Assembly: GCF_028281305.1 (NCBI RefSeq)
Contig: NZ_JANQKD010000023.1
Span: 1-64,000 of the forward strand
DNA: 64,000 nt
Direction of reading: 5' to 3'
Origin: Pelagibius sp.
GTDB lineage: Bacteria; Pseudomonadota; Alphaproteobacteria; Kiloniellales; Kiloniellaceae
Shown here: positions 19,402 to 38,873 of the stretch, piece after piece
How the letters are laid out: every line of letters starts with the position of its first letter
Numbering within the stretch: position 1 is the first letter of the stretch
The notes under the pieces: generated by a model
Told to the model about the DNA's origin: nothing
Database searches by the model: none
Seen by the model: only the letters and a program-made list of their open reading frames with translations
Position numbers and translations under genes: made by a program

Positions 19402-19423
19402 CCAAGAAAACGGGAGAGGGACC

Positions 19424-23575: not shown

Positions 23576-23852
23576 TGTGGAACCCGTCCGTTGACATCTC
23601 TCCATCCGGGACCTCAAAGCGCTCCGCACCCCACCCGCGGATCGCCGGTCGCTCCCGACAGCCCAGCACTTCTCAGTCTAGGGCCTTTGGCGGCCCGGCG
23701 ACAGGTTTTCCGGCGCGCGCCTGGATCTTCACCTTCAGGCCCCGTGCAAGGCCACTCCGCGCTGTGCTAGGCTTTGCGGCAAAGCGGCGCCAAGGCGAGG
23801 GCCGGGCGGCCGGCTTCGCGCCGAGGCCGAGGCGACGATCGGGAGGTAAGTC

Positions 23853-24347
23853 ATGGGGATGGAGGTGCGGCGTCTGACGGAGGACGACGCCGAGAGCTAT
23901 CGGGAGATCCGGCTGGAGGCGCTGGAGCATCATCCGGAGGCCTTTCAGGCGACCTACGAGAGCGTGGCGGACCTGCCGCTGGATGCCTACCGCCAGCGCC
24001 TGCGCCGCTATGCGCTGTTCGGCGGTTTTCTCGACGGCACGCTCTGCGGCTTCGTCGGCTTCTTTGCGCTGAAGAACACGAAGATCAAGCACAAGGGCCT
24101 GATGTGGGGCATGTACGTGAAGGAAAGCGCGCGCGGCAGCGGGCTGGCCGGGAAGATGGTGGAGGCGGTGGTCGACCACGCCCGCGACGAGGTGGAGCAA
24201 CTGCTCTGCTCCGTCATCGCCGACAACGAACGCGCCAGCCGCTTCTACGAGAAGATGGGCTTCGAACTCTACGGCACCGAACGTCGCGCTCTCAAGATCG
24301 GTGAGCGCTACTACGACGAAGAATTCCGGGTGAAGTTTCTGGGGTAG
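23853..24347 (+). CDS. GNAT-family N-acetyltransferase
   Basis: A 164-residue acetyltransferase. Motif A appears as LMWGMYVKESARGSGLAGKMVEAVVDHA (about 83-110), with the acetyl-CoA pyrophosphate loop RGSGLAG, and motif B as VIADNERASRFYEKMGFELYGTE. It is close in style to broadly annotated cytoplasmic acetyltransferases whose substrate cannot be told from sequence. GGGAGG lies just before the ATG. It stands alone between a convergent LysR gene and the PAP2 gene. Confidence 0.85.
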   Translation: MGMEVRRLTEDDAESYREIRLEALEHHPEAFQATYESVADLPLDAYRQRLRRYALFGGFLDGTLCGFVGFFALKNTKIKHKGLMWGMYVKESARGSGLAGKMVEAVVDHARDEVEQLLCSVIADNERASRFYEKMGFELYGTERRALKIGERYYDEEFRVKFLG

Positions 24348-24435
24348 ATGTGAGGCAAGCGCGTCGATCCGTGGACTCTACTGTCTGACTGAGCCGGGCG
24401 GGGCGAGTTCGGCGACGCGGTCTGTACCCGCCGAT

Positions 24436-25386
24436 TCAACGATTCCCTGAACGACCTGCCGAGGTCGCTTGGCCGCCGCGAGCAGCACAGGTCTTGATGT
24501 GGTCGATCAGGGCTCTGGTCTTGGCCGGGACGTAGGAGCGCGAGGGATAGAGGATCCAGGCCGCGGTGTCGAACGACTTCGCGGCGGCCTGCCAGTCAGG
24601 CAGAAGGTCGATGAGGCTGCCGTCGGCAAGATCCTGCGCGATCGTCCAGTCAGCGAGGAGCGCGGGACCCAGCCCGTCGAGCGCTGCGCGGCGGACCGCA
24701 AGCGCGTTTGAGATCATCAATGAAGCCCGGACGGGAACCTCGACGGTGTCACGGCTGCCTCTGCGGAACCTCCAGTACGACCGGAAGCCCGGCAGCGTGA
24801 AACAGACGCACCGCCTTTCCGAGAGGTCCTTTGGGTCCGACAGTGGGCCGGAGGCGTCGAGGTAGTCGGGGCTTGCCACGACACGGTATCGCGTCGCCAT
24901 CAGCTTGGTCACGACGGCGGCTTCGTCCACGCTCGGACTCAGGCGAATCCCAAGGTCGATGCTCTCCCGCACCAGATCAACCACCGCATCGTCGAGCATC
25001 AGTTCCAGGGTGAGATCCGGGTAGCGCTGTTGGAACGCCGGAAGGCGCGGCAGCAGCCAGCGCTCGCCGAAGGCCACCGACGTGGAAACGCGGAGTATGC
25101 CCGCCGGAGCACCGACCACATCGGCGGCCGCGAGGCGAGCTTCCTCCAGTTGCGCCAGAAGACCGGCGGCGCGATCGAAGAAGACCTGTCCCGCTTCGGT
25201 CGGCGAGAGCCGGCGCGTCGTGCGCTCGAAGAGGCGAAACCCCAGGGTCCGCTCCAACGCCGAGATCTGGCGGGAGACCGACGAGCGGTCCAGACCATGT
25301 TCGCGAGCTGCCGCCGAGAGCGAGCCGCGCCGCACGGCGGAGAGGAAGAGGTGAAGCGACAGCAGAGGGACATTGCGCAGATTCAT
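24436..25386 (-). CDS. LysR-family transcriptional regulator
   Basis: A 316-residue LysR regulator. The HTH lies at about residues 4-62 (LHLFLSAVRRGSLSAAAREHGLDRSSVSRQISALERTLG and LFERTTRRLSPTEAG). A type-2 periplasmic-binding fold (about 88-300) includes RVSTSVAFGERWLLPRLPAF and the IDLGIRLSPS strand, the style of the CrgA/DmlR subgroup. I chose the ATG at 25386, which starts the HTH cleanly; an upstream ATG at 25434 is possible. It is divergent from the DUF1499 gene, with a 122-bp shared control region. Confidence 0.88.
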   Translation of the reverse strand: MNLRNVPLLSLHLFLSAVRRGSLSAAAREHGLDRSSVSRQISALERTLGFRLFERTTRRLSPTEAGQVFFDRAAGLLAQLEEARLAAADVVGAPAGILRVSTSVAFGERWLLPRLPAFQQRYPDLTLELMLDDAVVDLVRESIDLGIRLSPSVDEAAVVTKLMATRYRVVASPDYLDASGPLSDPKDLSERRCVCFTLPGFRSYWRFRRGSRDTVEVPVRASLMISNALAVRRAALDGLGPALLADWTIAQDLADGSLIDLLPDWQAAAKSFDTAAWILYPSRSYVPAKTRALIDHIKTCAARGGQATSAGRSGNR

Positions 25387-25508
25387 TGTTGCACAAATTG
25401 CACCGCAGTGGGGCACATGTCGACCTTCCGACACACGGAGGCGACCCTATATCTCGAGCAATTGCCTCCGATTGATTCTGCAACGACCGATGCCTTCGAG
25501 GTTATCTC

Positions 25509-26264
25509 ATGAGCCGTTTCCCCTTAATCCTCGCTGTCTTTGCTTCCGTTTCGGGAGCCGCGGCCGTTTTCCTCACCCTCTCGCCGGGGCCGCTCTACGC
25601 GTCCGGCACTCTGGACCTGATGCCGGCCTTCTCGCTGCTGCTGGACGCCGCACCGGTAGCGGCAGTCGCAGCATTTGCGTTAGGCTTCGCCGGCATCATC
25701 TCCGGGGTTCTTCTGAAAGCGTGGCGGAGCGCCGCTCTTGCCGTCGTGGCGGCCGTGGTCGGAGGTGCGGTCTGGCTCGCCGTGGACGATTTCAAGAGCC
25801 GCGCCGCGGCAAATCCGCTGCACGACGTCACCACGAATGTCGACACGCCTCCGGCCTTCCTGGCCATCGCGCCACGCCGCTACGAGGAGGGGAGCGCGGC
25901 GGCCCGTGCTGCCTATCCGCACCCTGCCTGGCGGGAAACCCACGAGGCGATCTACCAGGACCTTGAGACGCTGGTGCTGCCGCTTGCCGTGGGCGAGGCG
26001 GCAAGCCGCGCCGGAGAGATTGCCGAAGATCTCGGTTGGTCGATTGAGGCAAGCAGTGTGGCGGAGGACTTTGGGCGCTTCGAGGCGGTCGACAGGACCG
26101 GCTGGTTCGGCTTTGCGGACGACATCGTCGTCACGATAGCAGCGCAGGAAGAGGCCTCTTCAGCGATCGACGTGAGATCCGTCAGCCGGATCGGCATCGG
26201 CGACGTCGGCAAGAACGCCGAGCGGATACGCACGTTCCTGCGCCGCCTTCGGGAGACGCCTTAG
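25509..26264 (+). CDS. DUF1499 membrane-anchored protein
   Basis: A 251-residue protein. Two or three N-terminal hydrophobic helices (about 5-27, 45-68, 72-92) precede a DUF1499 domain (about 100-250) with the typical NPLHDVTTNVDTPPAF start and the FADDIVVTIA and DVRSVSRIGIGDVGKNAERI strands. The function of DUF1499 is unknown. The soluble domain probably sits on one membrane face. It is divergent from the LysR gene, which may control it. Confidence 0.85.
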   Translation: MSRFPLILAVFASVSGAAAVFLTLSPGPLYASGTLDLMPAFSLLLDAAPVAAVAAFALGFAGIISGVLLKAWRSAALAVVAAVVGGAVWLAVDDFKSRAAANPLHDVTTNVDTPPAFLAIAPRRYEEGSAAARAAYPHPAWRETHEAIYQDLETLVLPLAVGEAASRAGEIAEDLGWSIEASSVAEDFGRFEAVDRTGWFGFADDIVVTIAAQEEASSAIDVRSVSRIGIGDVGKNAERIRTFLRRLRETP

Positions 26265-26317
26265 TTGCGAAGCGGTTACGCGGCAGGTTCCAGCCGGCTG
26301 CGGGCAGCTGCCATGCC

Positions 26318-26719
26318 TCACGGGCAGCCGAAGTTATCGCTGAGCGTGCCCATCACGGCCTTGCCGGCGCTGAGGTCCTTGCGGGCGCTGTAGTCCTGGT
26401 GGATCCAGCGCATGTAGGCCCAGCGGATTTCGTCGGCGGTGTTGCGGGGCGGCGGGCAGATGGTGGTGTCGCCGGTCTCGGCGAGGGCGTGGACGAAGCC
26501 CATCATGTACTGCTCGCATTCCAGCTCGGCGACGAAGCCATCGCGGGAATCGTTGTCGGCGACGGTGCAGGCGCTCAGGAGGTCGTGGGCGCTGTAGGCC
26601 TGCGCGGCGGCCGGGCCGGCCGGAATGCCGACCGTCGCTGCGACCGCGGCAAGGCCGATGATCGCGGTGGCGAGGATGACTGGCCGGAGGGTGACTGGCC
26701 GGAGAGTGACTGGGCGCAT
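26318..26719 (-). CDS. Secreted Rap1a/Tai-like protein
   Basis: A 133-residue protein. The signal peptide (residues 1 to about 40, cut near AAAQA) begins with a direct repeat, MRPVTLRPVTLRPVIL, encoded by 15-bp tandem DNA repeats. The mature domain has the Rap1a/Tai pattern: DLLSACTVADND, CEQYMMGFVHAL, ICPPP, and AVMGTLSDNFGCP, with paired cysteines. In enterobacteria such proteins give immunity to type VI secreted amidases. No effector gene is adjacent, so this one may have another periplasmic role. GGGAGG precedes the ATG. The 12-haem cytochrome ends 140 bp upstream on the same strand, with a hairpin between. Confidence 0.65.
   Translation of the reverse strand: MRPVTLRPVTLRPVILATAIIGLAAVAATVGIPAGPAAAQAYSAHDLLSACTVADNDSRDGFVAELECEQYMMGFVHALAETGDTTICPPPRNTADEIRWAYMRWIHQDYSARKDLSAGKAVMGTLSDNFGCP
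26677..26716. repeat. 15-bp tandem repeat in the Rap1a-like signal peptide
   Basis: TGACTGGCCGGAGRG occurs at 26677-26691 and 26692-26706, with a partial third copy (TGACTGGGCG) after it. On the coding strand it gives R-P-V-T-L units that lengthen the basic start of the signal peptide. Confidence 0.75.
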
Positions 26720-26784
26720 GAAAACCTCCCGAAAACTCTGATCTGACTCGGTGACCCCGCTAGGGGGTCCGGGGATGAGGCGCC

Positions 26785-26806
26785 GCGGGCGGCCGGGGCC
26801 GCCCGC
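26785..26806 (-). terminator. Hairpin downstream of the 12-haem cytochrome gene
   Basis: GCGGGCGGCC (26785-26794) pairs perfectly with GGCCGCCCGC (26797-26806), 56 bp after the cytochrome stop codon on the minus strand. A second hairpin, GACCCC/GGGGTC (26753-26769), follows. Neither has a long U-tract, so termination efficiency is uncertain. Confidence 0.5.
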
Positions 26807-26861
26807 TTTGCCCGCCTGGTATCTGTGTCCGTCCGGTCGTGTGACGCGGCCGGTCTGGTCG

Positions 26862-29219
26862 TCAGTTGCCGTCGCTCTTTTCCTTGGCGAGGGCGTGGAT
26901 GGCCTGGTTCATCACCGCCTGGTGCTCGGCGTTGTTGACGAACTTCGGCGAGTTCACCTGCGACCAGAGATCCTCGTTCACCATGTTCTGGTGGCAGCCC
27001 ATGCAGAGGCCGGTGCGCTCCATCTTCTCGCGCATGGCCTGGGGCAGGGGCCCGGTCAGCGGCCAGTGGGAGCCGACGGTGACCAACTGCTCGCCCTCGC
27101 GCGTCACGATCTGGCTGAGGTCGTGGTCGAGGCTGGGGATCGGCTGCGACTGGAGCTGGGTCTGGCGCGGGATGATCTGGCCCTGCGCGGTCTCCAGGTC
27201 CACGGTGAAGCCGTCCTCGTAGCCCTTCATGAAGCGCCCGCCGGAGATGCCGTAACCCAGCGCCTTGGGGTTGTCGTGGCAGCTCTCGCAGGTGCGCGCC
27301 TGGCGCCCGGCGGTGTGCGGCTGCACGGCGGCATGGTCCAGGCCCTTGGTGCCGCCGGCATCCGGCGTCATCCAGGTCTCGTTCTGGACGATGGTGTTGC
27401 CGTCCTTGTCGATGACCGTGGTGATCACCTGGCAGCCGGGCATGAGAGGCGAGACGCGGCCTTCGCCGTTGATGCCCAGGGTCGGCTCTTCCCAGCGCAG
27501 GTAGGAGCGGGTCTCCGAAACCTTGCCGGCGGAGGTCAGGCCGTTGGTGCCGAGCGGTGCGTCGGCGGTGAGGCCATCCTCGCCCCGCGCGTTGGCGTTG
27601 TTGATCCAGTCGATGTCGGTCTTGCCTTCCGAGTAGTCGACGGTGACGTGGCAGCCGTAGCACTGCGGCGCCCAGTCGGCGTGGCAGGCGTAGCACTCCA
27701 TCGATTCCATGTGCTGGCCGACGGCGCCCATGGCGACCTCGGCGCTCTGGCTCTTCCAGGTTCCGTCCAGGGCGATCTGCTTCAGCACCGGCACCTCGAA
27801 GTCGAGGCCGGAGGCGGAGTGCATGATCACCTTGTCGCCGCGCTTCACCACGTTGCCGTAGGGATTGCCGCGGGCGGTCAGCAGGTAGCCGTCCTCGGCG
27901 TCATAGACCTCGGCGAAGTACTGCTCCGGCGTGATGTCGTCGGCCAGGCCGCGCGGCGTGTCGCCGATGTCCTGGGCGTGCTCCTCGCCGTGACCCAGCG
28001 GCAGCTCCCAGGGGAACTTGGAGACCGTGCCGTGGCAGTCCTCGCACTCGATCTCGACCTGGGCCAGGGTGGTGCCCGGCAGGTTGCCGTCGCCGTGCAT
28101 GTCGATGGTGGTGTGGCAGTCCTGGCAGAGCATGCCGCCTTCCGGATTGCCCGGGCGCGACTGCACCTGGTGGTGCAGGTCGTCCTTGATGAAGAGGTAG
28201 TTCTTGGTGTGCAGCTTGGGCTGCTTGCCGCCGGTGGCGGTGTAGGGCGAGCCGTAGGGGAACTCCATGATGCCCTGGTAGCTCACGCCGATGCGCTTGC
28301 CGCGGTTGTGGCAGGAGTTGCAGGTCTCCGTTGGGATGCCGGAGTAGGTGAGGTCGCCGATCTGCACCTTGGACTTGCGCGAGCCCTGCATGCGGTGCAG
28401 CAGCAGCTTGCCCGGCTGGTCCTTGGCGATGGTCGGGTCGCCGCCCTCGTAGAAGCCATCGTTGGAATAGGGCACGTGGCAGGACGAACAGCCGGCGCCG
28501 CGGAAGTCGCCGCGCTTCTCGCGCCCGTTCACGCCGACGTGGCAGCGCTGGCACTGCTGACGCGAGTACGTGATGCCGGCCATGTTGGGGTTCTCGGCGA
28601 TGAGGTTCACGTCAACCGCCGGGACCTGCTTCATCTCAGACGGCATCTGATCGGGATGGGCCGCGACATAGGCGGTCATGTATTCGATGTAGGCCTCGGT
28701 GCCGACGGCGGGCTCCGGCCCGTCCTCGTCGACAAGGTCGTAGTTGCCCCAGACCACCTTGTGGTCGCTCTGCAGGCCCCAGGACCAGAGATTGCCCTGC
28801 AGCTTGCCCGCTTCGGTATTCATGAGGGACTTGGACAGCCGGCTGGCGTAGCCGTCGTGGCACTGGCCGCAGGCCTTGTCGGCGACGGTGATGGCGCCGG
28901 GGTCGGGATAGAAGACGTGCGGGCCGCCGGCCTCGACGAGGTCGCTGGGGCTGCCCTGGTGTGCCGCTTCCGCCGTGGTGGCGCCCGGCGTGCCGCCGTG
29001 GCAGATCACGCAGCCGGCGGGGTCGTTGAAATCGGCGCCCATGGCCTCGATCTGCTCGATCATCGGACCGTCGGTGAACTTCTCGATGCCGTCGTGGCAG
29101 GCGAGGCAGCCCTTCTCGGCGGCAAGCTGCGCATCCACGGATGTCTGGGCGGCAGCGCCGGTCGCGAAGGCCGCGGTTCCGAAGCAGAGCGTCACAAAGG
29201 CGAAAAGGGCCGATCTCAT
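26862..29219 (-). CDS. Secreted dodecahaem c-type cytochrome of unrecognised type
   Basis: A protein of about 785 residues with a signal peptide (MRSALFAFVTLCFGTAAFATGAA, cut near AAAQT) and twelve CxxCH haem motifs: CLACH, CVICH, CGQCH, CQRCH, CSSCH, CNSCH, CQDCH, CEDCH, CYACH, CYGCH, CESCH and CMGCH. There are no CxxCK or other atypical motifs and no membrane helix after the signal, so it is probably a soluble periplasmic protein. Many free histidines could be distal ligands. It does not match the pattern I know for NrfA, octahaem tetrathionate/hydroxylamine enzymes or MtrA. It is divergent from an FNR-type regulator, a CcmF-CcmH fusion and a CcmI-like gene, which probably serve its maturation. 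I chose the ATG at 29219, with GGGAG upstream. Confidence 0.85.
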   Translation of the reverse strand: MRSALFAFVTLCFGTAAFATGAAAQTSVDAQLAAEKGCLACHDGIEKFTDGPMIEQIEAMGADFNDPAGCVICHGGTPGATTAEAAHQGSPSDLVEAGGPHVFYPDPGAITVADKACGQCHDGYASRLSKSLMNTEAGKLQGNLWSWGLQSDHKVVWGNYDLVDEDGPEPAVGTEAYIEYMTAYVAAHPDQMPSEMKQVPAVDVNLIAENPNMAGITYSRQQCQRCHVGVNGREKRGDFRGAGCSSCHVPYSNDGFYEGGDPTIAKDQPGKLLLHRMQGSRKSKVQIGDLTYSGIPTETCNSCHNRGKRIGVSYQGIMEFPYGSPYTATGGKQPKLHTKNYLFIKDDLHHQVQSRPGNPEGGMLCQDCHTTIDMHGDGNLPGTTLAQVEIECEDCHGTVSKFPWELPLGHGEEHAQDIGDTPRGLADDITPEQYFAEVYDAEDGYLLTARGNPYGNVVKRGDKVIMHSASGLDFEVPVLKQIALDGTWKSQSAEVAMGAVGQHMESMECYACHADWAPQCYGCHVTVDYSEGKTDIDWINNANARGEDGLTADAPLGTNGLTSAGKVSETRSYLRWEEPTLGINGEGRVSPLMPGCQVITTVIDKDGNTIVQNETWMTPDAGGTKGLDHAAVQPHTAGRQARTCESCHDNPKALGYGISGGRFMKGYEDGFTVDLETAQGQIIPRQTQLQSQPIPSLDHDLSQIVTREGEQLVTVGSHWPLTGPLPQAMREKMERTGLCMGCHQNMVNEDLWSQVNSPKFVNNAEHQAVMNQAIHALAKEKSDGN

Positions 29220-29424
29220 CGTCGTCTCCCGTAAGAGGGCTGCCCGCCCGATCAAGCGGGCAAACGAGCGCCGCGGAGTCCTTCCGGCAGCGTCGTGACC
29301 GAAGGCTAGGAGGATTCGGAAACCGTCGCCCTGACCTTTGTCAGAAATCCCTAATGCCTATGCGGTTTTTTTGCCGGCCGCGGATTTGCCCCGAACAACC
29401 GTGGTTCGGGACAACGGCTGGTTG

Positions 29425-29465
29425 TTGATCCACCTCAATGCTTGTGTGAAATCGAGTCCTAGACT
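29425..29465 (+). promoter_or_regulatory. FNR-like box and -10 element upstream of the fnr-ccm operon
   Basis: TTGATCCACCTCAA (29425-29438) differs from the FNR consensus TTGAT-N4-ATCAA at one base. TAGACT (29460-29465) is a plausible -10, which would place the box near -41.5, the class II activation position. The box is in the 299-bp region between the divergent cytochrome gene and the regulator. The adjacent regulator has the E-x-x-S-R reading motif that recognises TTGAT. Confidence 0.7.
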
Positions 29466-29518
29466 TCCGCCTAAGAGCCGAGGGGCCGGCTCGACGTCTG
29501 CAGGAGCGGGGGAACGCG

Positions 29519-30361
29519 ATGGATTGCTGTCTCTGGGGTGACAGTTATCAGGAGACCGATCCGGGGGCAGGGGGGCCGGGACCGGGCGTCCCTGACGGGC
29601 CCGGCGAGAGGAACGGCTGCAAGGTTGCCGAACCCTTTCGCGGCTGCATCAACGGGGTCTGCGCCCAGTTGGGCGCGGGACCGCCGGTGCCGCGGCTGCG
29701 CAGTATGGCGCGCGGCGAGCGCCTGGAGACCGGCAGCGGCGTGAAGCTCTGGACGGTGCTGGGCGGCACGGTCGCGCTCTGCACGGCCCTTGCCGACGGG
29801 CGCCGCCAGATCGTTTGCCTCGCCACCCAGGGCGACCGCTTCTGCCCGCCCGATGAAGACGAGAGCCTGGATTTCTGGATAGAGGCGCTGGCGCCCAGCC
29901 ATCTCTGCGAGCTCGATCTCTCCGGTCACGCCGGCACCATCGCCGGCAATGCCAGCCTGAGCGCGGCGCTGTTCCGCGCGGCGCGCGACCAGGCGCGCTG
30001 CATCTATGCCCATCTCGTGACCCTCGGTCGGCTCGATGGCATGGAGCGGGTCTGCCTCTTTCTCGCCGACATGGCCTGGCGCGTTGGTGAGCACACGGCC
30101 CAGGGCTGGCGCGTCCGCCTGCCTTTGGCCCGCGAAGACATCGCGGACTACCTGGGCCTCAATGCCGAGACCGTCAGCCGCATCTTCAGCCGCGTGAAAA
30201 AGGCCCGCCTGGCCGATTTCCACTCGCCCACGGAATACGTCGTCCGCGATCTCGCCGGGCTGCAGAACCGCGCGCCGATCCTGGCACCCCACAGCGCCGA
30301 AAAGAGCGCCGCACAAAATGCGTCCGAGGCGGCGCTTCAGCCGATGGAGGTTCACCGCTAA
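29519..30361 (+). CDS. FNR-type (Crp/Fnr family) transcriptional regulator
   Basis: A 280-residue regulator with a cyclic-nucleotide-type sensor fold (about 55-150) and a Crp-type HTH (about 190-240) whose recognition helix reads LGLNAETVSRIFSR. E217, S220 and R221 are the residues that read TTGAT half-sites in FNR. Cysteines at 3, 4, 34, 43 and 48 plus one at 88, 100 or 109 could bind an oxygen-sensitive [4Fe-4S] cluster, though the spacing (GCINGVC) is not the classic FNR one; the first 30 residues are Gly/Pro-rich and atypical. Its stop overlaps the next start (TAATG), so it is cotranscribed and coupled with ccmF-ccmH. An FNR-like box 87 bp upstream suggests autoregulation. Confidence 0.85.
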   Translation: MDCCLWGDSYQETDPGAGGPGPGVPDGPGERNGCKVAEPFRGCINGVCAQLGAGPPVPRLRSMARGERLETGSGVKLWTVLGGTVALCTALADGRRQIVCLATQGDRFCPPDEDESLDFWIEALAPSHLCELDLSGHAGTIAGNASLSAALFRAARDQARCIYAHLVTLGRLDGMERVCLFLADMAWRVGEHTAQGWRVRLPLAREDIADYLGLNAETVSRIFSRVKKARLADFHSPTEYVVRDLAGLQNRAPILAPHSAEKSAAQNASEAALQPMEVHR

Positions 30362-32778
30362 TGCCCGACATCGTCGTCGAGTTCGGCCACTTTGCCCTCT
30401 GTCTCGCCCTCGCTGTCGCGGTGCTTCAGTGCGTTGTGCCCTTGGCGGGCCTGCGCAACGACTCGCTGAGCGCTCTGCGCTTTGCCGATGCCGGTGCCCT
30501 GGTCCAGTTTCTCGCGACCGCCGTGGCCATGGCGGCCCTCACCTATGCCTACGTGGTCTCGGACTTTTCCGTCGCCACGGTGGCGATGAACTCTCACTCC
30601 GCCAAGCCGATGCTCTATAAGGTGACCGGCGTCTGGGCCAACCACGAAGGCTCTATGCTGCTCTGGGTGCTGATGCTGGCGCTGTTCGGTGCGCTGATCT
30701 CGGTCTTCGGGCGTTCGGTGCCGACGCCCATGCGGGCCACCGTGCTGGCGGTGCAGGCGGCCGTCGGCGTGGGCTTCCTCGCCTACATCCTCTTCACCTC
30801 CAATCCCTTCGAGCGCCTGGCGCTGCCGCCGCTGGACGGGCAGGGCATGAACCCGCTGCTGCAGGATCCGGGCGTCGCCTTTCACCCGCCGATGCTCTAC
30901 CTCGGCTACGTCGGCTTCTCGACCGCCTTTTCCTTCGCCGTCGCCGCGCTGATCCGCGGGCGTGTCGATCCGGCCTGGGCACGCTGGATGCGGCCCTGGG
31001 TGCTGATCGCCTGGGCGGGGCTCACCCTCGGCATCGCCCTGGGAAGCTGGTGGGCCTACTACGAGCTCGGCTGGGGCGGCTTCTGGTTCTGGGACCCGGT
31101 GGAGAATGCCAGCTTCATGCCCTGGCTGCTGGCCACTGCGCTGCTGCACTCGGCCATCGTCGTCGAGAAGCGCGAAGCGCTGCAGAAGTGGACCATTCTG
31201 CTGGCCATCCTCACCTTCGCCCTCAGCCTGATCGGGACCTTCCTGGTCCGTTCCGGCATTCTCTCGTCCGTCCACTCCTTCGCCACCGATCCGGAGCGCG
31301 GCGTCTTCATCCTGGGGCTGCTGGCCCTCTTCATCGGCGGCGCCTTGGCGCTCTTCGCCTGGCGGGCACCGATGCTGAAAGACGGCGGCTACTTCGCGCC
31401 GGTGTCCCGCGAAGGCGCGCTGCTGCTGAACAACGTGCTGCTGGCCGCCGCGACGGGCGTGGTCTTCATCGGCACCCTCTATCCGCTGTTCCTGGAGCTG
31501 ATGACCGGCGAAAAGATCACCGTCGGCGCGCCTTACTTCAACCAGACCTTCCTGCCGATCTTCGGGGTCACCGCGGCGGTTGCGGCTGTGGGGCCGTTCC
31601 TGAGCTGGAAGCGCGCCGACCTGAAGGGAGTGCTGCAGCGTCTTCGTTTTGCTCTTGTGGCGGCGCTTGTCATGGCCGTGGCGCTGGCGATGGCCGGCTG
31701 GCGCGAACCGTTGGGCCTGCTGGGCCTCGCGCTGGCGGCGTGGCTGGCCAGCGCCACCGTGGCTGACCTCCTGGTCCGCATCGGCCTGCCCAAGGTGAGC
31801 CCCGGCGTCGCGCTGCGGCGTCTGGTCGGTCTTCCCACCTCGGCCTGGGGTCTGGTACTGGGGCACCTGGGCGTCGCTGTCGCCGTTGCCGGGGTTGCCG
31901 CCATCTCCGTCTGGCAGAGCGAGTCGATCCAAGTGCAGCAGCCCGGCGACCTGCAGCAGGTCGCCGGCTACGAGTTCAGCCTGCTGGATGTCGGTGCCGG
32001 GCGTGGGCCCAACTATCAAACGTCCATCGCGACGGTGAAGGTGACCCGCGACGGGGAGACCGTGGCGCTGCTGTTTCCGGAGCGGCGCTGGTATCCGGTC
32101 GAGCGGCAGCCGACCACCGAGGCCGGCATCGTGACCCTTTGGCACGGCGATCTCTACGCCGTGCTGGGCGATCCGGACGGCGCCGGGGGCTGGGTGACGC
32201 GCTACTACTACAACCCCGGTGTCGCCTGGATGTGGGCGGGCGCCCTGCTGATGGCTCTGGGGGCGCTGGTCTCGGTCAGCGACCGCCGCCTGCGGGTCGG
32301 CGTGCCGCGCCGTGCCCTGCGCCCGGCCGTGACCGCGGTTCTCGCGCTTATGCTGGTGGCGAGTGCCGCGCCTGCGGTGGCCATCGAGCCCGGCGAAATG
32401 TTCGACGATCCCGCCAAGGAGGCGCGCGCCCAGAGCATCGGCAAGCAACTGCGCTGTCTGGTTTGCCAGAACCAGTCGATCTTCGACTCCAACGCCGGGC
32501 TTGCCGGCGACCTGCGCGCCGTGGTGCGCGAGCGCATCCGGGCCGGCGACGACGATCAGGCCGTGTTGGATTACGTCGTGGCACGTTATGGCGACTACGT
32601 CCTGCTGCGCCCGCCATTCAAGACCCATACGCTGGTGCTCTGGGGCGCGCCCTTGGTGCTGCTCCTGCTGGCGGTCTTGGCGGCGCGGTCCTACACCCGG
32701 CGGCGCCGGCGGCCCGACGGCCTCACAGCGGAGGAACGGACTGCAGCCCGCAAGCTGTTGCAGGGAGATGCGTCATGA
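30361..32778 (+). CDS. CcmF-CcmH fusion: cytochrome c haem lyase subunits
   Basis: An 805-residue protein. Residues 1 to about 655 are a CcmF/NrfE-type multi-helix membrane protein with the WWD haem-handling motif (GWGGFWFWDPVENASFMPW, about 237-255) and periplasmic histidines. From about 660 a second hydrophobic segment and LRCLVCQNQ (about 697-705) give a complete CcmH/NrfF thiol-disulfide domain with its own C-terminal anchor. Normally these are separate genes, often with ccmG between; no ccmG or ccmE is here. CcmF and CcmH with CcmI attach haem to apocytochrome CxxCH cysteines. Flanking genes (FNR regulator, CcmI-like, divergent 12-haem cytochrome) suggest a dedicated NrfEFG-like lyase. 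The start overlaps the regulator stop; the stop overlaps the next ATG. Confidence 0.9.
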   Translation: MPDIVVEFGHFALCLALAVAVLQCVVPLAGLRNDSLSALRFADAGALVQFLATAVAMAALTYAYVVSDFSVATVAMNSHSAKPMLYKVTGVWANHEGSMLLWVLMLALFGALISVFGRSVPTPMRATVLAVQAAVGVGFLAYILFTSNPFERLALPPLDGQGMNPLLQDPGVAFHPPMLYLGYVGFSTAFSFAVAALIRGRVDPAWARWMRPWVLIAWAGLTLGIALGSWWAYYELGWGGFWFWDPVENASFMPWLLATALLHSAIVVEKREALQKWTILLAILTFALSLIGTFLVRSGILSSVHSFATDPERGVFILGLLALFIGGALALFAWRAPMLKDGGYFAPVSREGALLLNNVLLAAATGVVFIGTLYPLFLELMTGEKITVGAPYFNQTFLPIFGVTAAVAAVGPFLSWKRADLKGVLQRLRFALVAALVMAVALAMAGWREPLGLLGLALAAWLASATVADLLVRIGLPKVSPGVALRRLVGLPTSAWGLVLGHLGVAVAVAGVAAISVWQSESIQVQQPGDLQQVAGYEFSLLDVGAGRGPNYQTSIATVKVTRDGETVALLFPERRWYPVERQPTTEAGIVTLWHGDLYAVLGDPDGAGGWVTRYYYNPGVAWMWAGALLMALGALVSVSDRRLRVGVPRRALRPAVTAVLALMLVASAAPAVAIEPGEMFDDPAKEARAQSIGKQLRCLVCQNQSIFDSNAGLAGDLRAVVRERIRAGDDDQAVLDYVVARYGDYVLLRPPFKTHTLVLWGAPLVLLLLAVLAARSYTRRRRRPDGLTAEERTAARKLLQGDAS

Positions 32779-34214
32779 CGCTCTGGATTGCCATTGCCAT
32801 CGCCGTTGCTTTGACGGCTCTCTGGTTGACGCGGCCCTTCCTCCATCGCGCCCAGTCGGAGTCCAACGAGGCGGAGCACGCCATTTCGATCTATCGCGAT
32901 CAGCGCGAGGAGGTGCAGCGCGACGCCGAGAGCGGCCTGATCACGGCGGCGGAGCGCGATGCCGCCGAACAGGAGATCGAGAGTCGTGCGCTTCGCGCCG
33001 CGCGTCTCTTGGACACCGGAATTTCCGTCACCCGGCGCGCGCCGCTCACGGCAGCCGGGCTGGGCCTGCTGGCCTGCGCCGGCGCTGTCGGTCTCTATGC
33101 CTCTATGGGCGCACCGGATGCCGTCGACCAGCCCTTGGCGGAGCGCCGGACGGCAATCCTGGAACGGCAGGCAGCCTCGGGCGACCTGGAAAGCCAGGCC
33201 ATGCTGATGATCGAGCGCGGCGAAACCGAGCCCGAGAGCTTTGAGAAGTGGTGGACCCTGGCGCGCTCCCACGCGGCGGTCGGCGACTATGCCTCCGCCG
33301 CCGATGCTTATCGCCGCGCAGCGGAGCTGTCGGACGACGATCCCGCCGTGCTCTCCGCCTATGCCGAGGCGCTGACGCTGGCCAACGGCAACAAGGTCCC
33401 GCTGGCGGCCAAGCTGATCTTCTCCCAGGCGGTGCAGAGCGGTAACGATCCGCGTGCCCGCTATTACCTGGCCTTGGCCAAGGCTCAATCCCAGGATTTC
33501 GAAGGGGCGCTCGCCGACTGGGTGCAGCTGCTCGGCGAGTCTCAGGCCGGAGCACCCTGGGTGCCGCTGGTGCGCCGCGACATCGTCAATATGACGCGCT
33601 TCCTCAAGCGCGACCTGGCAGCGGTGTTGCCGGACGCCACCGAGGCGGAGCTGGCCCGGGCTGCGCTACCGGTGCAGCAGCCGGTGCAGACGGCATCCGC
33701 AAGCGATCCGGCCCAGGAGAGCGCGCGGCTGGCGGCTGCCCTGGAGGCCGACCCGAAGGACTGGCAGGGCTGGATCCGTCTGGCCCGCCTGCGGGCCGGG
33801 GCCGGATCGGCTGAGGAGGCCGGGGCGGCATTGACGGCAGCCCGGGAGCACTTTGCCGGCGCGCCTTTCGTGCTGGGGAAAATCGACGAGGTCGCCGCAG
33901 AACTCGGCCTTGCCCAGCGGCAGGTCGCGCGCGGCCCCAGCGACGAGGACGTCGCCGCGGCGGCCAGCCTGAGCGAGGAAGAGCGTGATCAGATGGTGCG
34001 TGGCATGGTGGATGGCCTGGCGGCGCGGCTGGAAGGCCGGCCCGATGACCTGGAGGGCTGGCTGATGCTCATCCGCTCCTACGCTGTGCTGCAGGAGGCC
34101 GAGGCCGCCCAGCAGGCGGTACGCGATGCCAGCCGGGCGTTTGAAGCCGATGCCGCCAAGCGCCGGCAGATCGCCCAGACCGCCGACAGCCTGGGGATCC
34201 CGCCAGTCCAGTAA
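32775..34214 (+). CDS. ccmI: CcmI/NrfG-like cytochrome c biogenesis protein with TPR domains
   Basis: A 479-residue protein. An N-terminal membrane helix (about 2-20), the conserved EHAISIYRDQREEVQRDAESGLIT stretch of CcmI and a second helix (about 92-112) precede a periplasmic region with tetratricopeptide-like helices (about 150-260 and 300-470). CcmI holds the apocytochrome C-terminus and passes it to the CcmF-CcmH lyase. ATGA overlap with the ccmF-ccmH gene indicates translational coupling. Together with its neighbours it resembles NrfEFG, a lyase set specialised for one cytochrome. A general Ccm system is presumably elsewhere in the genome. Confidence 0.85.
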   Translation: MTLWIAIAIAVALTALWLTRPFLHRAQSESNEAEHAISIYRDQREEVQRDAESGLITAAERDAAEQEIESRALRAARLLDTGISVTRRAPLTAAGLGLLACAGAVGLYASMGAPDAVDQPLAERRTAILERQAASGDLESQAMLMIERGETEPESFEKWWTLARSHAAVGDYASAADAYRRAAELSDDDPAVLSAYAEALTLANGNKVPLAAKLIFSQAVQSGNDPRARYYLALAKAQSQDFEGALADWVQLLGESQAGAPWVPLVRRDIVNMTRFLKRDLAAVLPDATEAELARAALPVQQPVQTASASDPAQESARLAAALEADPKDWQGWIRLARLRAGAGSAEEAGAALTAAREHFAGAPFVLGKIDEVAAELGLAQRQVARGPSDEDVAAAASLSEEERDQMVRGMVDGLAARLEGRPDDLEGWLMLIRSYAVLQEAEAAQQAVRDASRAFEADAAKRRQIAQTADSLGIPPVQ

Positions 34215-34238
34215 GCGGCCGTAGGCCAAGGCCGGAAG

Positions 34239-34329
34239 GCCGGACGGCAAGAGCTTTCCCACGGGTGAGGGTTCCGGAGGAAAAGCTGAGACTCTCAGGT
34301 AGGGTGGCGGCTAAGCTGGCGTCAGCCAG
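34239..34329 (+). promoter_or_regulatory. Glycine-riboswitch-like leader
   Basis: CCGGAGGAAAA (34274-34284) followed by ACTCTCAGGTA (34291-34301) resembles the conserved core of the glycine aptamer (CCGAAGGAGCAA ... ACTCTCAGGTA), with AAGAGC upstream (34249-34254) in place of GGAGAGC. A CTGGC-GTCA-GCCAG hairpin (34316-34329) follows. It lies 50-140 bp before a class V aminotransferase gene, of a family that includes glyoxylate aminotransferases which produce glycine. The fit is partial and only one aptamer is visible. Confidence 0.45.
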
Positions 34330-34376
34330 ACCCCCCAAGGGTCCGTAACCCCAAAGTCTGCCGCCAGGAGAGAGCA

Positions 34377-35522
34377 ATGTCCGGCCTGCTGAAGAACGTC
34401 GATCCCGACGGACTTCTCGAATACTCCGTGGTCTTCACCGACCGTGCCCTCAACCACATGTCCCAGTCCTTCCAGGGCGTGATGCGCGACATCTCCGACA
34501 CCCTGAAGCGGGTCTACAAGGCCGAGGCGGTGGCGGTGGTGCCCGGCGGCGGCACCTATGCCATGGAGGCGGTGGCCCGCCAGTTCGCCGGCGGCAAGAA
34601 GTGCCTGGTCATTCGCAACGGCTGGTTTAGCTACCGTTGGACTCAGATTTTCGAAGCCGGTGACATCCCCGATGAGGCCATCGTGCTGAAGGCCCGCCAG
34701 ACGGCACCCGGTCATCAGGCGCCCTTCGCCCCGGTGCCTATCGAGGAGGCGGTGGCGGTTATCGAGGCGGAAAGGCCCGATGTGGTCTTCGCACCGCATG
34801 TGGAGACCTCTGCCGGCATGATCCTGCCGGAGGGCTATATGAAGGCCCTGGCGGAGGCGGTGCACGGCGTTGGCGGGCTCTTCGTTCTGGACTGCATTGC
34901 TTCGGGCACGATCTGGGTCGACATGGCCGCGACCGGTGTCGATGTCCTGATCTCGGCGCCGCAGAAGGGCTGGAGCGCCTCGCCCTGCAGCGGCCTGGTC
35001 ATGATGAGCAAGGCGGCGCGGGAGCGCATCGAGGGGACGACCAGCTCCAGCTTCGCCTGCGACCTGAAAAAGTGGCTGGAGATCATGGAAGCCTACGAGA
35101 AGGGCGGCCATGCCTACCACGCCACCATGCCCACTGATGCGCTTGCCGGTTTCCGCGACGCCATGCGGGAGACCGAACTGACCGGCTTCGACGCTGCATG
35201 TGAGGCCCAGCAGGAGCTGGGCACGCGCGTGCGCAAGCTGCTGGCCGACGCCGGCTTCAGGAGCGTGGCTGCGGAAGGCTTCGGCGCCCCCGGCGTCGTG
35301 GTCTGCTATACCGACGATGCGGACATCAAGAGCGGCAAGAAATTCGCGGCTCAGGGCCTGCAGATCGCCGCCGGCGTGCCCCTGATGTGCGACGAGCCGG
35401 CGGACTTCCAGACCTTCCGCATCGGCCTCTTCGGTCTCGACAAGCTGGCCGATGTCGGGCGCACGGTCGCCAACCTGAAAACGGCCCTCGACAAAGTGGT
35501 GGGGACCGCAAATCTGCGGTGA
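34377..35522 (+). CDS. Class V aminotransferase (alanine/serine-glyoxylate type)
   Basis: A 381-residue PLP enzyme of fold type I. The PLP-phosphate loop is VPGGGTYAMEAV (about 56-67), the ring-stacking and Asp region is FVLDCIASGT (about 168-177), and the Schiff-base lysine lies in SAPQKGWSASP (about 199-209). Many relatives transfer the amino group of alanine or serine to glyoxylate, giving glycine, or act on related small amines. A glycine-riboswitch-like leader precedes the gene, which would suit control by glycine level. The start ATG follows AGGAGAG. The substrate is not certain. Confidence 0.8.
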   Translation: MSGLLKNVDPDGLLEYSVVFTDRALNHMSQSFQGVMRDISDTLKRVYKAEAVAVVPGGGTYAMEAVARQFAGGKKCLVIRNGWFSYRWTQIFEAGDIPDEAIVLKARQTAPGHQAPFAPVPIEEAVAVIEAERPDVVFAPHVETSAGMILPEGYMKALAEAVHGVGGLFVLDCIASGTIWVDMAATGVDVLISAPQKGWSASPCSGLVMMSKAARERIEGTTSSSFACDLKKWLEIMEAYEKGGHAYHATMPTDALAGFRDAMRETELTGFDAACEAQQELGTRVRKLLADAGFRSVAAEGFGAPGVVVCYTDDADIKSGKKFAAQGLQIAAGVPLMCDEPADFQTFRIGLFGLDKLADVGRTVANLKTALDKVVGTANLR

Positions 35523-36077: not shown

Positions 36078-36251
36078 GCCGGCACACGGTCAAAGGCGGG
36101 TATAGTGCCGGGCAGTGCCGGGCAGTGACGGCGGACGGGGTCGAGCAATCCTGTTCCGGATCGCCTTTAGGTTCGTTGAGGCGGGTTTTCCCCTGTGACA
36201 TTCTTGTGCTGTCGGGCCGTAGCCTTTGGGCAAGGTCCGGTAGGCAAGGAA

Positions 36252-38873
36252 ATGAAGGGGGGCCGCATTTCATTGCTGAACCGGGGTCATTTTCGCGCGG
36301 GTCCGGGATCCGTGCTGCGGCGCTGTGCGCCTGGCTTTGCAGGGCTGCTTCTGCTGGCGGCCTGTGCCGCGCCGTACTTTCCGGCGCCCCAGCCCTCTGC
36401 GGGGTTCACCAACTTCGAAACCGAGCCGCTGCGGCCGATCGCTCTGTCCGGCGACGGTAGTCATCTCTATGCGCTCAACACCCCCGATGACCGGTTGGAG
36501 GTCTTCGCGGCCAGTCCCGGCGGCCTGAAGCCGGTGGGCGAGGCGCGCCTGGGTCTGCGCCCGATCGCACTGACGCTGCGCAACGCGCGCGAGCTCTGGG
36601 TGACGAATCATCTTTCCGACAGTGTCTCCGTCGTCGATGTCAGCGACCCGGCGGCGCCCCGGGTTATCCGCAGCCTGGATGTCGGCGACGAACCCCGCGG
36701 CATCGTGGCGGCGGGACCCGAGCGGCGCTGGGTGGTCGTCGCCGCGGCGAAGCGGGGCGACAGTCTGCGGCCGGGAACCGGCCGCGCCCATCTCTGGGTC
36801 TTTGACGCGGAAGCGCCCGAACGTGCGCCGCAGGTGCTGACCCTGTTCGGTGCGAAGCCCCGCGCCCTCGCGGTCTCGCCGGACGGCCTTTCGGTCTACG
36901 CTGGCATCTTCCATTCCGGCAACAGGACCGCCAGTGTCGGCGGCATCGAGGCTGCCTCCATCGGCCGGGCCCCCCTCTACAGCTTCGACAATCCGCCGCC
37001 GCCCGAGGGCCCGCCGAAGGCCGGCGCCATTGTGCGCCAGGTGAACGATACCTGGCTGGACGCAGAGGGGCGCGACTGGTCGCGTCTGGTGCCCTTTGAT
37101 CTGCCCGATTACGACGTCTTCCGCATCGACCTCTCCGGCGACCGGCCGAGGGTTGCCGAGGCCATCAGCGGTGTCGGCACCGTGCTCTTCGACATCGCCG
37201 TGCGCCCGCGCGACGGCGAAGGGGGTGACGCAGCACGCCAGGAGGTCTGGGTCTCCAACAGCGAGGCGGCCAACCTGACGGTCCATGAGCCGCGTCTCCG
37301 GGGCCGCTTCGCCGAGAACCGCATCACCCGCCTGCGGCGCGGCGCCGAAGGCTGGGAGGTCCTGCCGCAGGATCTGAACCCCCGCGTCGACCCAGCGCAC
37401 ACGCCGGCGCCTTCCGCGCTGCGGGCCCGCAGCCTTGCCCAGCCGCTGCAGATCGTCTTCGAACCATCGGGGGAGAAGGCCTACGTGGCAGCCTTCGGGT
37501 CGCGCAAGGTCGCCGTGCTCTCGCCCGACGCCGAGGTGCTGGACCGCATCGACGTCGGCTTCGGTCCGGCCGGGCTGGCCTACGACGCAGCAAGGCAGAG
37601 GCTTTACGTCTTCAACCGACTGGATACCTCGATCTCCGTCGTCGACACGCAGGGCGGCAAGGTCGTCGCCACTGTTCCATTGAAGCACGACCCGACGCCT
37701 GCAGTGATCAAGGCCGGGCGCCCGCTGCTCTACGACGCTGCGGCGACCTCCGGCCAGGGCACTCTGTCCTGCGCCTCCTGCCATGTCTTCGCCGACTTCG
37801 ACGGACTTGCCTGGGATCTCGGCAATCCCGAGGGCGAACTGGTGGCTATGCCGGAGGTGCTGGAGCACGGCCTCTTCGTTCCGCAGCAGGAGTTCCATCC
37901 CCTGAAAGGTCCCATGACGACCCAGAGCCTGCGCGGCATCGCCGACACCGGGCCGCTGCATTGGCGCGGCGACCGCTTCGGGCGCGACAGCGATCAGCCG
38001 GGCAGCAATTTGGCGAGCTTCATGGACTTCGATCGGGCCTTTGTCGACCTGATGGGGATGAAGCAGGCGCCCGGCAAGGCCGAGATGGAAGCCTTTGCCC
38101 GCTTCGTTCACACGATCCGCTATCCACCCAACCCAAATGAGGCGCCGGACCGCAGCTACAATTCGCGGCAGCAAGCGGGCTTTCGCATTTTCAATGACGG
38201 TATCGACATCGACCGCGGTCTCCTGAGTTGCCGCGACTGCCACGCGGCGCCGCTGGGCACCAACGGCCTGATCAACTTCGAAGGGATCGATGCCGGGATC
38301 GACATGAAGACGGCGCACCTGCGCAACGTCTATCAGAAGGTCGGGCGCTTCAACCGGCCCGGCCCCCAGGTCTCCGGCTTCGGCCTTGTGCACGATGGCA
38401 GCATCGACACCATCATCAACTTCCTGAAGCTGGACGTCTTTCACATTCCCGGCAAGACGGAGGAGGAGCGCGACAGTCTGCGCGCCGACTTGAACGCCTT
38501 CGTCATGGCCTTCAACACCGGCATAGCGCCGGCGGTCGGCCTGCAGACCACGGTCAGCGGGACGGCGGATGACGGGCAGAGGGCGCGGATCGACCTGATG
38601 GCCGAGCGGGCCGCCGCCGGAGACTGCGATCTGATCGCCTGGGCGCGCGCGGCGGGGCGCGAGAGGGGATGGCTCTGGGGTGCGGAGGGTTTTCTGCCGG
38701 ACCGCGCGGGCGAGGCACCTTGGCGGCGGGACGACTTGCTGGCGCATGCGGCCGGAGCGCCGGTGACCTTCGCCTGCGTGCCCCCGGGCGACGGCTGGCG
38801 CAGCGCGTTGGACCGGGATCTCGACGGACGGCTTGATGGCGATGAGCCCGGCCTAAGGACCTCCCTGCAATGA
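36252..38873 (+). CDS. Beta-propeller / di-haem cytochrome c peroxidase-like lipoprotein
   Basis: A protein of about 873 residues. A signal peptide with lipobox LLLLAAC-AAP suggests an outer- or inner-membrane lipoprotein. Residues about 50-490 hold YVTN-type beta-propeller repeats (RPIALTLRNARELWVTNHLSDSVSVVDVSD and FNRLDTSISVVDTQGGKVV are clear blades). The C-terminal part has two c-haem sites, CASCH (C507) and CRDCH (C660), in a MauG/cytochrome c peroxidase-like setting (TQSLRGIADTGPLHWRGDR, TAHLRNVYQ). Such fusions are redox enzymes of the envelope with unknown substrates. I chose ATG 36252, preceded by AAGGAA. The last codons overlap the next gene (ATGA), so the two are coupled. Confidence 0.82.
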   Translation: MKGGRISLLNRGHFRAGPGSVLRRCAPGFAGLLLLAACAAPYFPAPQPSAGFTNFETEPLRPIALSGDGSHLYALNTPDDRLEVFAASPGGLKPVGEARLGLRPIALTLRNARELWVTNHLSDSVSVVDVSDPAAPRVIRSLDVGDEPRGIVAAGPERRWVVVAAAKRGDSLRPGTGRAHLWVFDAEAPERAPQVLTLFGAKPRALAVSPDGLSVYAGIFHSGNRTASVGGIEAASIGRAPLYSFDNPPPPEGPPKAGAIVRQVNDTWLDAEGRDWSRLVPFDLPDYDVFRIDLSGDRPRVAEAISGVGTVLFDIAVRPRDGEGGDAARQEVWVSNSEAANLTVHEPRLRGRFAENRITRLRRGAEGWEVLPQDLNPRVDPAHTPAPSALRARSLAQPLQIVFEPSGEKAYVAAFGSRKVAVLSPDAEVLDRIDVGFGPAGLAYDAARQRLYVFNRLDTSISVVDTQGGKVVATVPLKHDPTPAVIKAGRPLLYDAAATSGQGTLSCASCHVFADFDGLAWDLGNPEGELVAMPEVLEHGLFVPQQEFHPLKGPMTTQSLRGIADTGPLHWRGDRFGRDSDQPGSNLASFMDFDRAFVDLMGMKQAPGKAEMEAFARFVHTIRYPPNPNEAPDRSYNSRQQAGFRIFNDGIDIDRGLLSCRDCHAAPLGTNGLINFEGIDAGIDMKTAHLRNVYQKVGRFNRPGPQVSGFGLVHDGSIDTIINFLKLDVFHIPGKTEEERDSLRADLNAFVMAFNTGIAPAVGLQTTVSGTADDGQRARIDLMAERAAAGDCDLIAWARAAGRERGWLWGAEGFLPDRAGEAPWRRDDLLAHAAGAPVTFACVPPGDGWRSALDRDLDGRLDGDEPGLRTSLQ

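Follow-up and report, generated by a model that had tools for sequence, protein, structure and literature searches.

A dodecahaem cytochrome locus of Pelagibius sp. with a divergent FNR-type regulator and an adjoining second CcmF/CcmH/CcmI set

Dedicated haem lyases have been described for multihaem cytochromes which carry a haem at an atypical site. As set out in PMC6976685, NrfA is a pentahaem protein with a CxxCK site, SirA is an octahaem protein with a CX12NKGCH site and the sulfite reductase of Wolinella has a CX15CH site, and the atypical sites of NrfA and SirA are served by the dedicated lyases NrfEFG and SirEFG, respectively. ExtM, with twelve haems and 68.3 kDa, belongs to a cluster tied to selenite and tellurite reduction via the porin ExtI (PMC5877670). 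The locus described here lies in a stretch of 64,000 nucleotides from Pelagibius sp. (assembly GCF_028281305.1, contig NZ_JANQKD010000023.1, positions 1 to 64,000), called the window in the following. In it the gene of an exported cytochrome c with twelve haem motifs is divergent from the genes of a Crp/FNR-family regulator, a CcmF-CcmH fusion and a CcmI-type chaperone. This arrangement recurs in relatives, the CcmFs of the block group in a single clade that excludes the ordinary CcmFs from these genomes, and FNR-type boxes are over-represented in front of the cytochrome gene. The explanation we favour, with slightly more confidence than doubt, is an FNR-controlled anaerobic respiratory cytochrome module with a lineage-specific lyase which adds capacity or specificity to haem ligation. 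The features concerned are listed here.

26862..29219, minus strand: exported dodecahaem cytochrome c, 785 amino acids from ATG 29219, 12 CxxCH motifs
27648..27662, minus strand: haem motif 10, CYGCH, residues 520-524
27432..27434, minus strand: codon of Cys596, candidate haem ligand, cysteine in 78/79 sequences
29425..29438, plus strand: FNR-type box TTGATCCACCTCAA in the promoter region between the divergent genes, 1 mismatch to TTGATNNNNATCAA
29519..30361, plus strand: Crp/FNR-family regulator (PF13545), cysteine in four FNR-type alignment columns
30361..32778, plus strand: CcmF-CcmH fusion (PF16327, PF01578, PF03918, TIGR00353)
32775..34214, plus strand: CcmI-type apocytochrome chaperone with a TPR domain (TIGR03142, 66.8 bits, cut-off 29.3; PF23914)
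26318..26719, minus strand: small secreted Rap1a-type protein (PF18602, E=1.1e-12)

The block and its conservation

A first reading of the letters alone (the sequence-only reading) had described a secreted protein with 12 CxxCH motifs divergent from a coupled set of FNR-type regulator, CcmF-CcmH and CcmI, and Pfam and NCBIfam agree with it. The open reading frame of the cytochrome (26862-29255, minus strand) has an alternative first start, TTG at 29255; the ATG at 29219 was preferred because aligned homologues and a GGGAGA ribosome site favour it, and the N-terminus reads as a signal peptide as judged by eye. The stop of the regulator and the start of CcmF overlap in TAATG and CcmFH and CcmI overlap in ATGA, which suggests that the three genes are translationally coupled. 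In the fusion, CcmF corresponds to residues ~1-645 and CcmH to ~663-800 with the motif LRCLVCQN. The regulator scored under the cut-offs of both the FixK and the FnrL model. The Rap1a-type gene 142 nt downstream of the cytochrome, whose product has 4 invariant cysteines in a 33-sequence alignment, had been overlooked at first, as had the FNR-type box at 29425-29438. The absence of CcmA-E and CcmG noted earlier agrees with these results: no CcmC was found on the contig of the window with PF01578, and A, B, D, E and G were not seen by eye in the gene list, Pfam scanning in the window having covered the block and some neighbours with the other genes judged by eye. An ABC ATPase (6799-7584) and a redoxin (60002-60553) are distant from the block, and for neither was a Ccm identity established. 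An 827-amino acid open reading frame antisense to the cytochrome (26751-29234) is a GC-rich shadow; as simple calling picks such antisense frames in GC-rich loci, genes at the loci of relatives were called with a coding-score caller.

A scan of named genomes yielded at least 528 relatives of the cytochrome among 593 candidate stretches, and the locus comparisons drew on the best 80 of these at least 528, among them many Rhodobacterales, one Photobacterium and bacteria symbiotic with worms, nematodes and a clam. The comparisons are based on 88 cytochrome loci (L numbers), from which the duplicates L110 and L118 and L109, which has no cytochrome, had been dropped, while L116 and L117, pieces of one genome, were kept. 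Of 398 genomes sampled from the phylum, 17 had some match to the cytochrome and 6, the own genome included, matched over most of its length; with the own genome counted, 4/23 genomes of the family and 3/8 of the genus carry it. In 30 of the 88 loci a divergent regulator gene lies upstream of the cytochrome, with 800 bp or more of upstream sequence available in 81. The full arrangement, in which regulator, CcmF and CcmI all point away from the cytochrome, is seen in 23/88 loci, or in 22 of the 53 loci that extend for 5.5 kb or more upstream, so the claim of a conserved block stands. Among named hosts, the full block occurs in Rhodobacterales, in Rhodospirillales and in one member of the Stappiaceae, and strains of Tropicimonas, Aliiruegeria, Shimia abyssi and Aliiroseovarius carry it. 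Plasmid carriage was considered and rejected, since the only records were 13 from Sphingobium/Sphingopyxis with 21% coverage each.

In one genome of the same genus without the cytochrome (G001) a PAP2 gene and an aminotransferase gene are only 367 bp apart (L182 11913-12280). In the window 10.8 kb (23560-34377) separate the PAP2 gene (22760-23560) from the aminotransferase (34377), and this stretch contains the block together with GNAT, LysR and DUF1499 genes. The other four genomes of the genus without the cytochrome all had a match to the aminotransferase (4/4), but in the stretches compared no PAP2 gene turned up. That an unrelated cytochrome came to lie beside ccm genes by chance, to which we give next to no credence, is refuted by the conservation of the block: it occurs in 23/88 loci in three named orders, its CcmFs form a single clade, and the whole stretch is absent from one same-genus genome.

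The sequence-only reading had also stated that the cytochrome has no partner subunit. This does not hold in general, given the recurrent partners in relatives and the Rap1a-type gene at the locus itself. A Rap1a-type gene follows the cytochrome in 38/88 loci (82 of the loci have at least 600 bp downstream), a TPR protein takes its place in 35/88, with a further protein behind it in 28, and the Rap1a-type and TPR genes occur together in 0/88. The protein behind the TPR gene has a weak likeness to the PsbP/Mog1 fold (model pLDDT 91; best Foldseek match E 1e-4, TM ~0.4-0.5).

A few observations on the surroundings may be added. Two tandem genes with DAO and GCV_T domains (dimethylglycine/sarcosine dehydrogenase-type) lie at 16972-21895 of the window, and both are present in G001 beside the island site; DAO/GCV_T-type genes near some loci (cluster c8) look suggestive but are common. 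The gene at 36195-38873 encodes a large protein that combines a YVTN-type beta-propeller with two CxxCH motifs; it has no Pfam match at E<=1e-4 and a weak likeness to the beta-type propeller of hydrazine synthase (40.7 bits, cut-off 560). Six relatives (L056, L093, L094, L097, L100 and L104) come from bins named Dehalococcoidia, Thermaceae, Anaerolineae and Flavobacteriales; some of these bins may be misbinned, yet the CcmFs of L094 and L097 are very divergent, as another phylum would predict.

The dodecahaem cytochrome

All 12 haem sites of the cytochrome in the window are CxxCH. That it does not follow the pattern of NrfA or of the octahaem families was confirmed, as no Nrf catalytic subunit matched and the model of the octahaem tetrathionate reductase family (TIGR04315) gave 13.5 bits with a cut-off of 375; NrfB-type and NrfH-type models gave 25.5 bits (cut-off 184) and 14.8 bits (cut-off 134.2). 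The best curated match is Geobacter ExtM (NF040943, E=7.6e-71, 239.2 bits, cut-off 800), which spans residues 213-669, roughly half of the protein. A further match, to ExtN, covers residues 507-686, and the Pfam matches are cytochrome c7/c3 and MtrC-type haem modules. The cytochrome had been called unrecognised, which is right in so far as no characterised family matches it closely and needs correction in that it is a distant relative of ExtM. None of the 398 genomes of the phylum had a match to the ExtM model over its cut-off, and no close solved structure related by sequence or fold was found. A predicted model of the cytochrome reached a pLDDT of 81 and a pTM of 0.81.

Since ExtM likewise has twelve haems and the homology covers half of the cytochrome, the latter could be part of an ExtM-like route of selenite, tellurite or extracellular electron transfer with an outer-membrane porin. 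A porin-cluster gene lies within 6 kb of the cytochrome in 6/88 loci (one member is Porin_5 by Pfam), reminiscent of ExtI in the extHIJKLMNOPQS cluster. We consider this very improbable. The score is far under the ExtM cut-off, the protein has 785 residues as compared to the 68.3 kDa of ExtM, and its neighbours differ, with an FNR-type regulator and a private lyase at the locus of the window. Among the neighbours of the ext cluster (ExtH, I, J, KL, N, O, P, Q and S) none was recognised at the locus or in the recurrent clusters by eye and by chosen scans only; neither an ext-like partner nor a porin was seen beside the copy of the window in the gene list inspected by eye; and 82/88 loci, some of them incomplete, are without a porin-cluster member within 6 kb.

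In an alignment of 79 sequences 11 of the 12 haem motifs are present in 78 or 79, barring a variant spacing at motif 3. Motif 1 is absent in 7/79, probably due to start choice. Eleven histidines outside the motifs are nearly invariant, each in 78 or 79 of the 79 sequences, and Cys596 is the sole conserved cysteine outside the motifs (78/79); the one sequence without it (L115) also lacks haem motifs 10 and 12. Eleven histidines and one cysteine make twelve possible distal ligands, matching the twelve haems, and Cys596 may be the axial ligand of a haem. In the predicted model a beta-rich region sits between haems 10 and 11. A search for further relatives bearing on Cys596 and haem 10 gave 1/12 genomes in the family of G226 and 1/400 in the phylum of G723, both already in the set. 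Thiosulfate dehydrogenases are described with active sites in which haem has Cys/His ligation (PMC9562282), and a His/Cys haem at an active site would be the only likeness of the protein of the window to the TsdA/SoxA cytochromes. A long-spacer site of the SirA/MccA type does not occur in the cytochrome of the window, where the conserved cysteine positions are those of the twelve CxxCH motifs and Cys596 only.

The cytochrome is possibly a terminal reductase. The same twelve ligands would, however, suffice for a non-catalytic periplasmic carrier or capacitor handing electrons from quinol to other reductases or to an outer-membrane route, no catalytic partner is seen in the block, and the Pfam matches are to haem modules of the c7/c3 and MtrC type. 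A plain wire would not be expected to have a conserved non-haem cysteine or the beta-rich region that follows haem 10 and precedes haem 11, and ExtN, to which part of the cytochrome is homologous, is counted as potentially catalytic in a study of cable bacteria, ExtM standing in neither of the two lists given there (PMC11976967). We regard a pure carrier as doubtful, though an alternative to be taken seriously.

At haem motif 3 the spacing alternates between CX2CH and CX4CH (CX4CH in 30/79 sequences; 31 were counted as not CX2CH). This was considered as a reason for the lyase and rejected, because the window has CxxCH there, the spacing changes 7 times on the tree and CX4CH is found with and without the block.

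The second CcmF/CcmH/CcmI set

The block is not the sole source of CcmF, CcmH and CcmI in its genome, where the check for a complete ccm set elsewhere revealed a second, ordinary one on contig C67 by Pfam. Its order is ABC ATPase (in the place of ccmA), ccmB, ccmC, ccmE, ccmF, redoxin (in the place of ccmG), ccmH and ccmI, no ccmD being called in this operon. A CcmF_C search in 31 genomes gave at least two matches in 26, some of those in G006 and G013 being fragments at contig ends. The five genomes with a single CcmF are the block-bearing L079 (2.8 Mb), L090 with its cytochrome within a ccm operon, and L032, L049 and L054, whose cytochrome has no CcmFHI beside it.

In a tree of 57 CcmFs, from which the duplicates L042, L001, L109, L148 and L131 and the short L036 had been dropped, the 26 block-type copies were split from the other 31 by one branch (support 99/97); L090, L094 and L097, whose CcmF belongs to a fuller ccm operon beside the cytochrome, had been assigned to the 31 'general' sequences beforehand. 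When five additional CcmFs of these genomes (55.6-56.7% identity to that of the window) were added and L090, L094 and L097 formed a group of their own, the 26 still stood on one side with a support of 97 in the Shimodaira-Hasegawa-like approximate likelihood ratio test (SH-aLRT). The fragments of G013 are in neither tree. The CcmF of the window has 57% identity to the ordinary CcmF of its own genome versus ~70% to block copies of other orders. In the tree of the cytochromes, which has SH-aLRT support only, the 23 block cytochromes lie inside one clade of 25 rows with L032 and L054 as exceptions, so the lyase was apparently recruited once.

The linkage of lyase and cytochrome was also followed in 292 genomes of the order of G089, which is presumably the Rhodobacterales as its cytochrome groups with that of Shimia abyssi. 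Two of these genomes had the cytochrome and all 292 a CcmF match. Just these 2 genomes supplied the two highest-scoring CcmF matches (996 bits with 70% identity and 968 bits with 69%), and the other matches among those listed had at most 59% identity.

The extra CcmF, CcmH and CcmI might be general rather than private, boosting ligation for all c-type cytochromes in anoxia and linked to the cytochrome through nothing else than the shared FNR promoter. All twelve motifs are ordinary, the cytochrome occurs without the block in other lineages, and in Shewanella CcmI has been suggested to serve both lyases (PMC6976685). In L090 (1902-13153) the cytochrome, a Rap1a-type gene and the regulator are part of what is by Pfam a full ccm operon, where they separate ccmC from ccmE, and a one-mismatch FNR-type box precedes the first gene of the operon, the ABC ATPase in the place of ccmA. 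On the other side, none of the CcmFs sampled from elsewhere in these genomes joins the private clade, and in the 292 genomes, among the matches listed, a CcmF at the level of the clade was found only alongside the cytochrome, while a general booster should also occur alone. We therefore hold a general role to be possible but not likely.

The proposed analogy to Nrf was upheld in part. As with NrfEFG and NrfA of E. coli, a second set of the CcmF/CcmH/CcmI type adjoins one multihaem cytochrome, and SirEFG with SirA in Shewanella and CcsA1 with the Wolinella sulfite reductase likewise combine a lyase and chaperone for one terminal reductase with a general Ccm system, as is proposed here. In contrast to the CxxCK pentahaem NrfA, the cytochrome of the window has 12 haems and CxxCH only, its CcmF and CcmH are fused, and its chaperone passes the CcmI cut-off while the NrfG model gave just 19.4 bits (cut-off 306). 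The analogy fails in that there is no atypical haem site and many relatives are without the lyase. With all twelve sites ordinary, the rationale of NrfEFG and SirEFG, an atypical motif, is inapplicable. We know of no earlier case of a private haem lyase for a cytochrome without an atypical haem site. Among the papers listed for dodecahaem cytochromes, ExtM, dedicated lyases and multihaem proteins of Rhodobacterales, none was seen to describe the block, as judged by title and the start of the abstract.

Regulation and proposed role

All four FNR-type columns are cysteine in 28 of 32 regulator rows, the window included; L058 and L111 are without some of the four. In FNR-type regulators four such cysteines can bind a 4Fe-4S cluster, and the regulator of the window, in which their spacing is atypical, would probably sense via a cluster of this kind. 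The box at 29425-29438 is the only match to TTGATNNNNATCAA with at most one mismatch in the 64 kb, where 0.39 are expected, and as at least one such box appeared in 30/100 shuffles it is the position rather than the count which is telling, the single box of the window being one that could arise by chance. A box of this kind was found upstream of the cytochrome in 19/32 loci with a regulator and 18/53 without (37/85 together), as compared to 25/495 other genes in the same stretches; these counts include near-copies, as a single site is common to the window, L117, L042 and L110, the last two of which come from the same genome. Cysteine columns and boxes together sustain the claim of FNR-type control. 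Since the boxes are also enriched where the block is absent, anaerobic control seems to be wider than the lyase block and is perhaps older. As separate observations, an octahaem gene of L083 (1-1246), which lies 4.6 kb from the cytochrome and shows a weak similarity to hydrazine dehydrogenase (72.6 bits, cut-off 900), carries a one-mismatch FNR-type box, and a perfect box was seen at a gene of the hemerythrin cluster (c11) close to the cytochrome in both L069 and L073.

Neighbours in relatives point to the supply of electrons. In L112 the cytochrome and a TorC-like gene are downstream of genes for Rieske protein, cytochrome b and cytochrome c1 (bc1). In L100 the cytochrome precedes COX1, QrcA-like pentahaem, NrfD-like and ActD genes, as in alternative complex III. 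A pentahaem gene of the TorC cluster (one member named by a hidden Markov model) lies within 6 kb of the cytochrome in 6/88 loci. These bc1, TorC-like and ActD-type neighbours support a respiratory, quinol-fed role, which by analogy probably applies to the window as well.

The favoured FNR-controlled module would work as follows. With falling oxygen the regulator, probably by an iron-sulfur cluster, would act on the shared promoter region and switch on the exported cytochrome with its Rap1a-type helper on one side and CcmF-CcmH with CcmI on the other. Haem and reductant would be supplied by the ordinary CcmABC-E and CcmG encoded elsewhere, and the private CcmF/H/I would carry out the final ligation of the twelve haems, giving extra capacity or specificity when so haem-rich a protein is made. 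The periplasmic cytochrome would be reduced by the quinol pool via bc1 or a quinol dehydrogenase of the TorC/NapC type and pass the electrons along its haems to an acceptor. We hold it somewhat likelier than not to be a terminal reductase, acting on a small oxyanion or a sulfur compound, with the active site perhaps near haem 10, where Cys596 could serve as axial ligand. Capacity or specificity under oxygen control is favoured over chemical need because there is no atypical site and no haem-motif column separates the cytochromes with and without the block.

Besides the chance level of a single box and the near-copies in the box counts, a number of points weigh against this explanation. The cysteines of the regulator in the window are atypically spaced and the regulators of L029 and L030 have lost cysteines. 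The two genomes in which clade-level CcmF and cytochrome co-occur are of one genus and thus count as a single evolutionary event. In many relatives the cytochrome is not accompanied by CcmFHI, and even within the block-bearing clade two members, L032 and L054, have one CcmF each; the lyase is thus not required for the cytochrome and looks like an add-on with no chemical necessity. None of the 14 columns which at the chosen thresholds separate block from non-block cytochromes falls in a haem motif. Ligation by Cys596 leans on conservation and on one very long-branch sequence, L115, and conserved methionines and lysines are also candidate haem ligands. Finally, the bc1, TorC and ActD neighbours belong to lineages other than that of the window.

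A bolder version holds that these proteins are a new family of anaerobic terminal reductases, periplasmic and with twelve haems, an active-site haem ligated by Cys596 (perhaps haem 10), a sulfur or other oxyanion as substrate, FNR control and lineage-specific assembly kits. One clade of Alphaproteobacteria would have the private CcmF/H/I as its kit, and other lineages a TPR lipoprotein with a PsbP-like protein. We think this rather improbable as a whole.

Should the cytochrome prove to be a terminal reductase, a form of anaerobic respiration has so far gone unnoticed. For the family, of which no close member was found characterised while at least 528 relatives exist in the genome collection, the private lyase bears on the question why dedicated haem lyases are kept, as the usual answer, an atypical motif, fails here. 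The recurrence of the block hints at an overlooked mode of life without oxygen.

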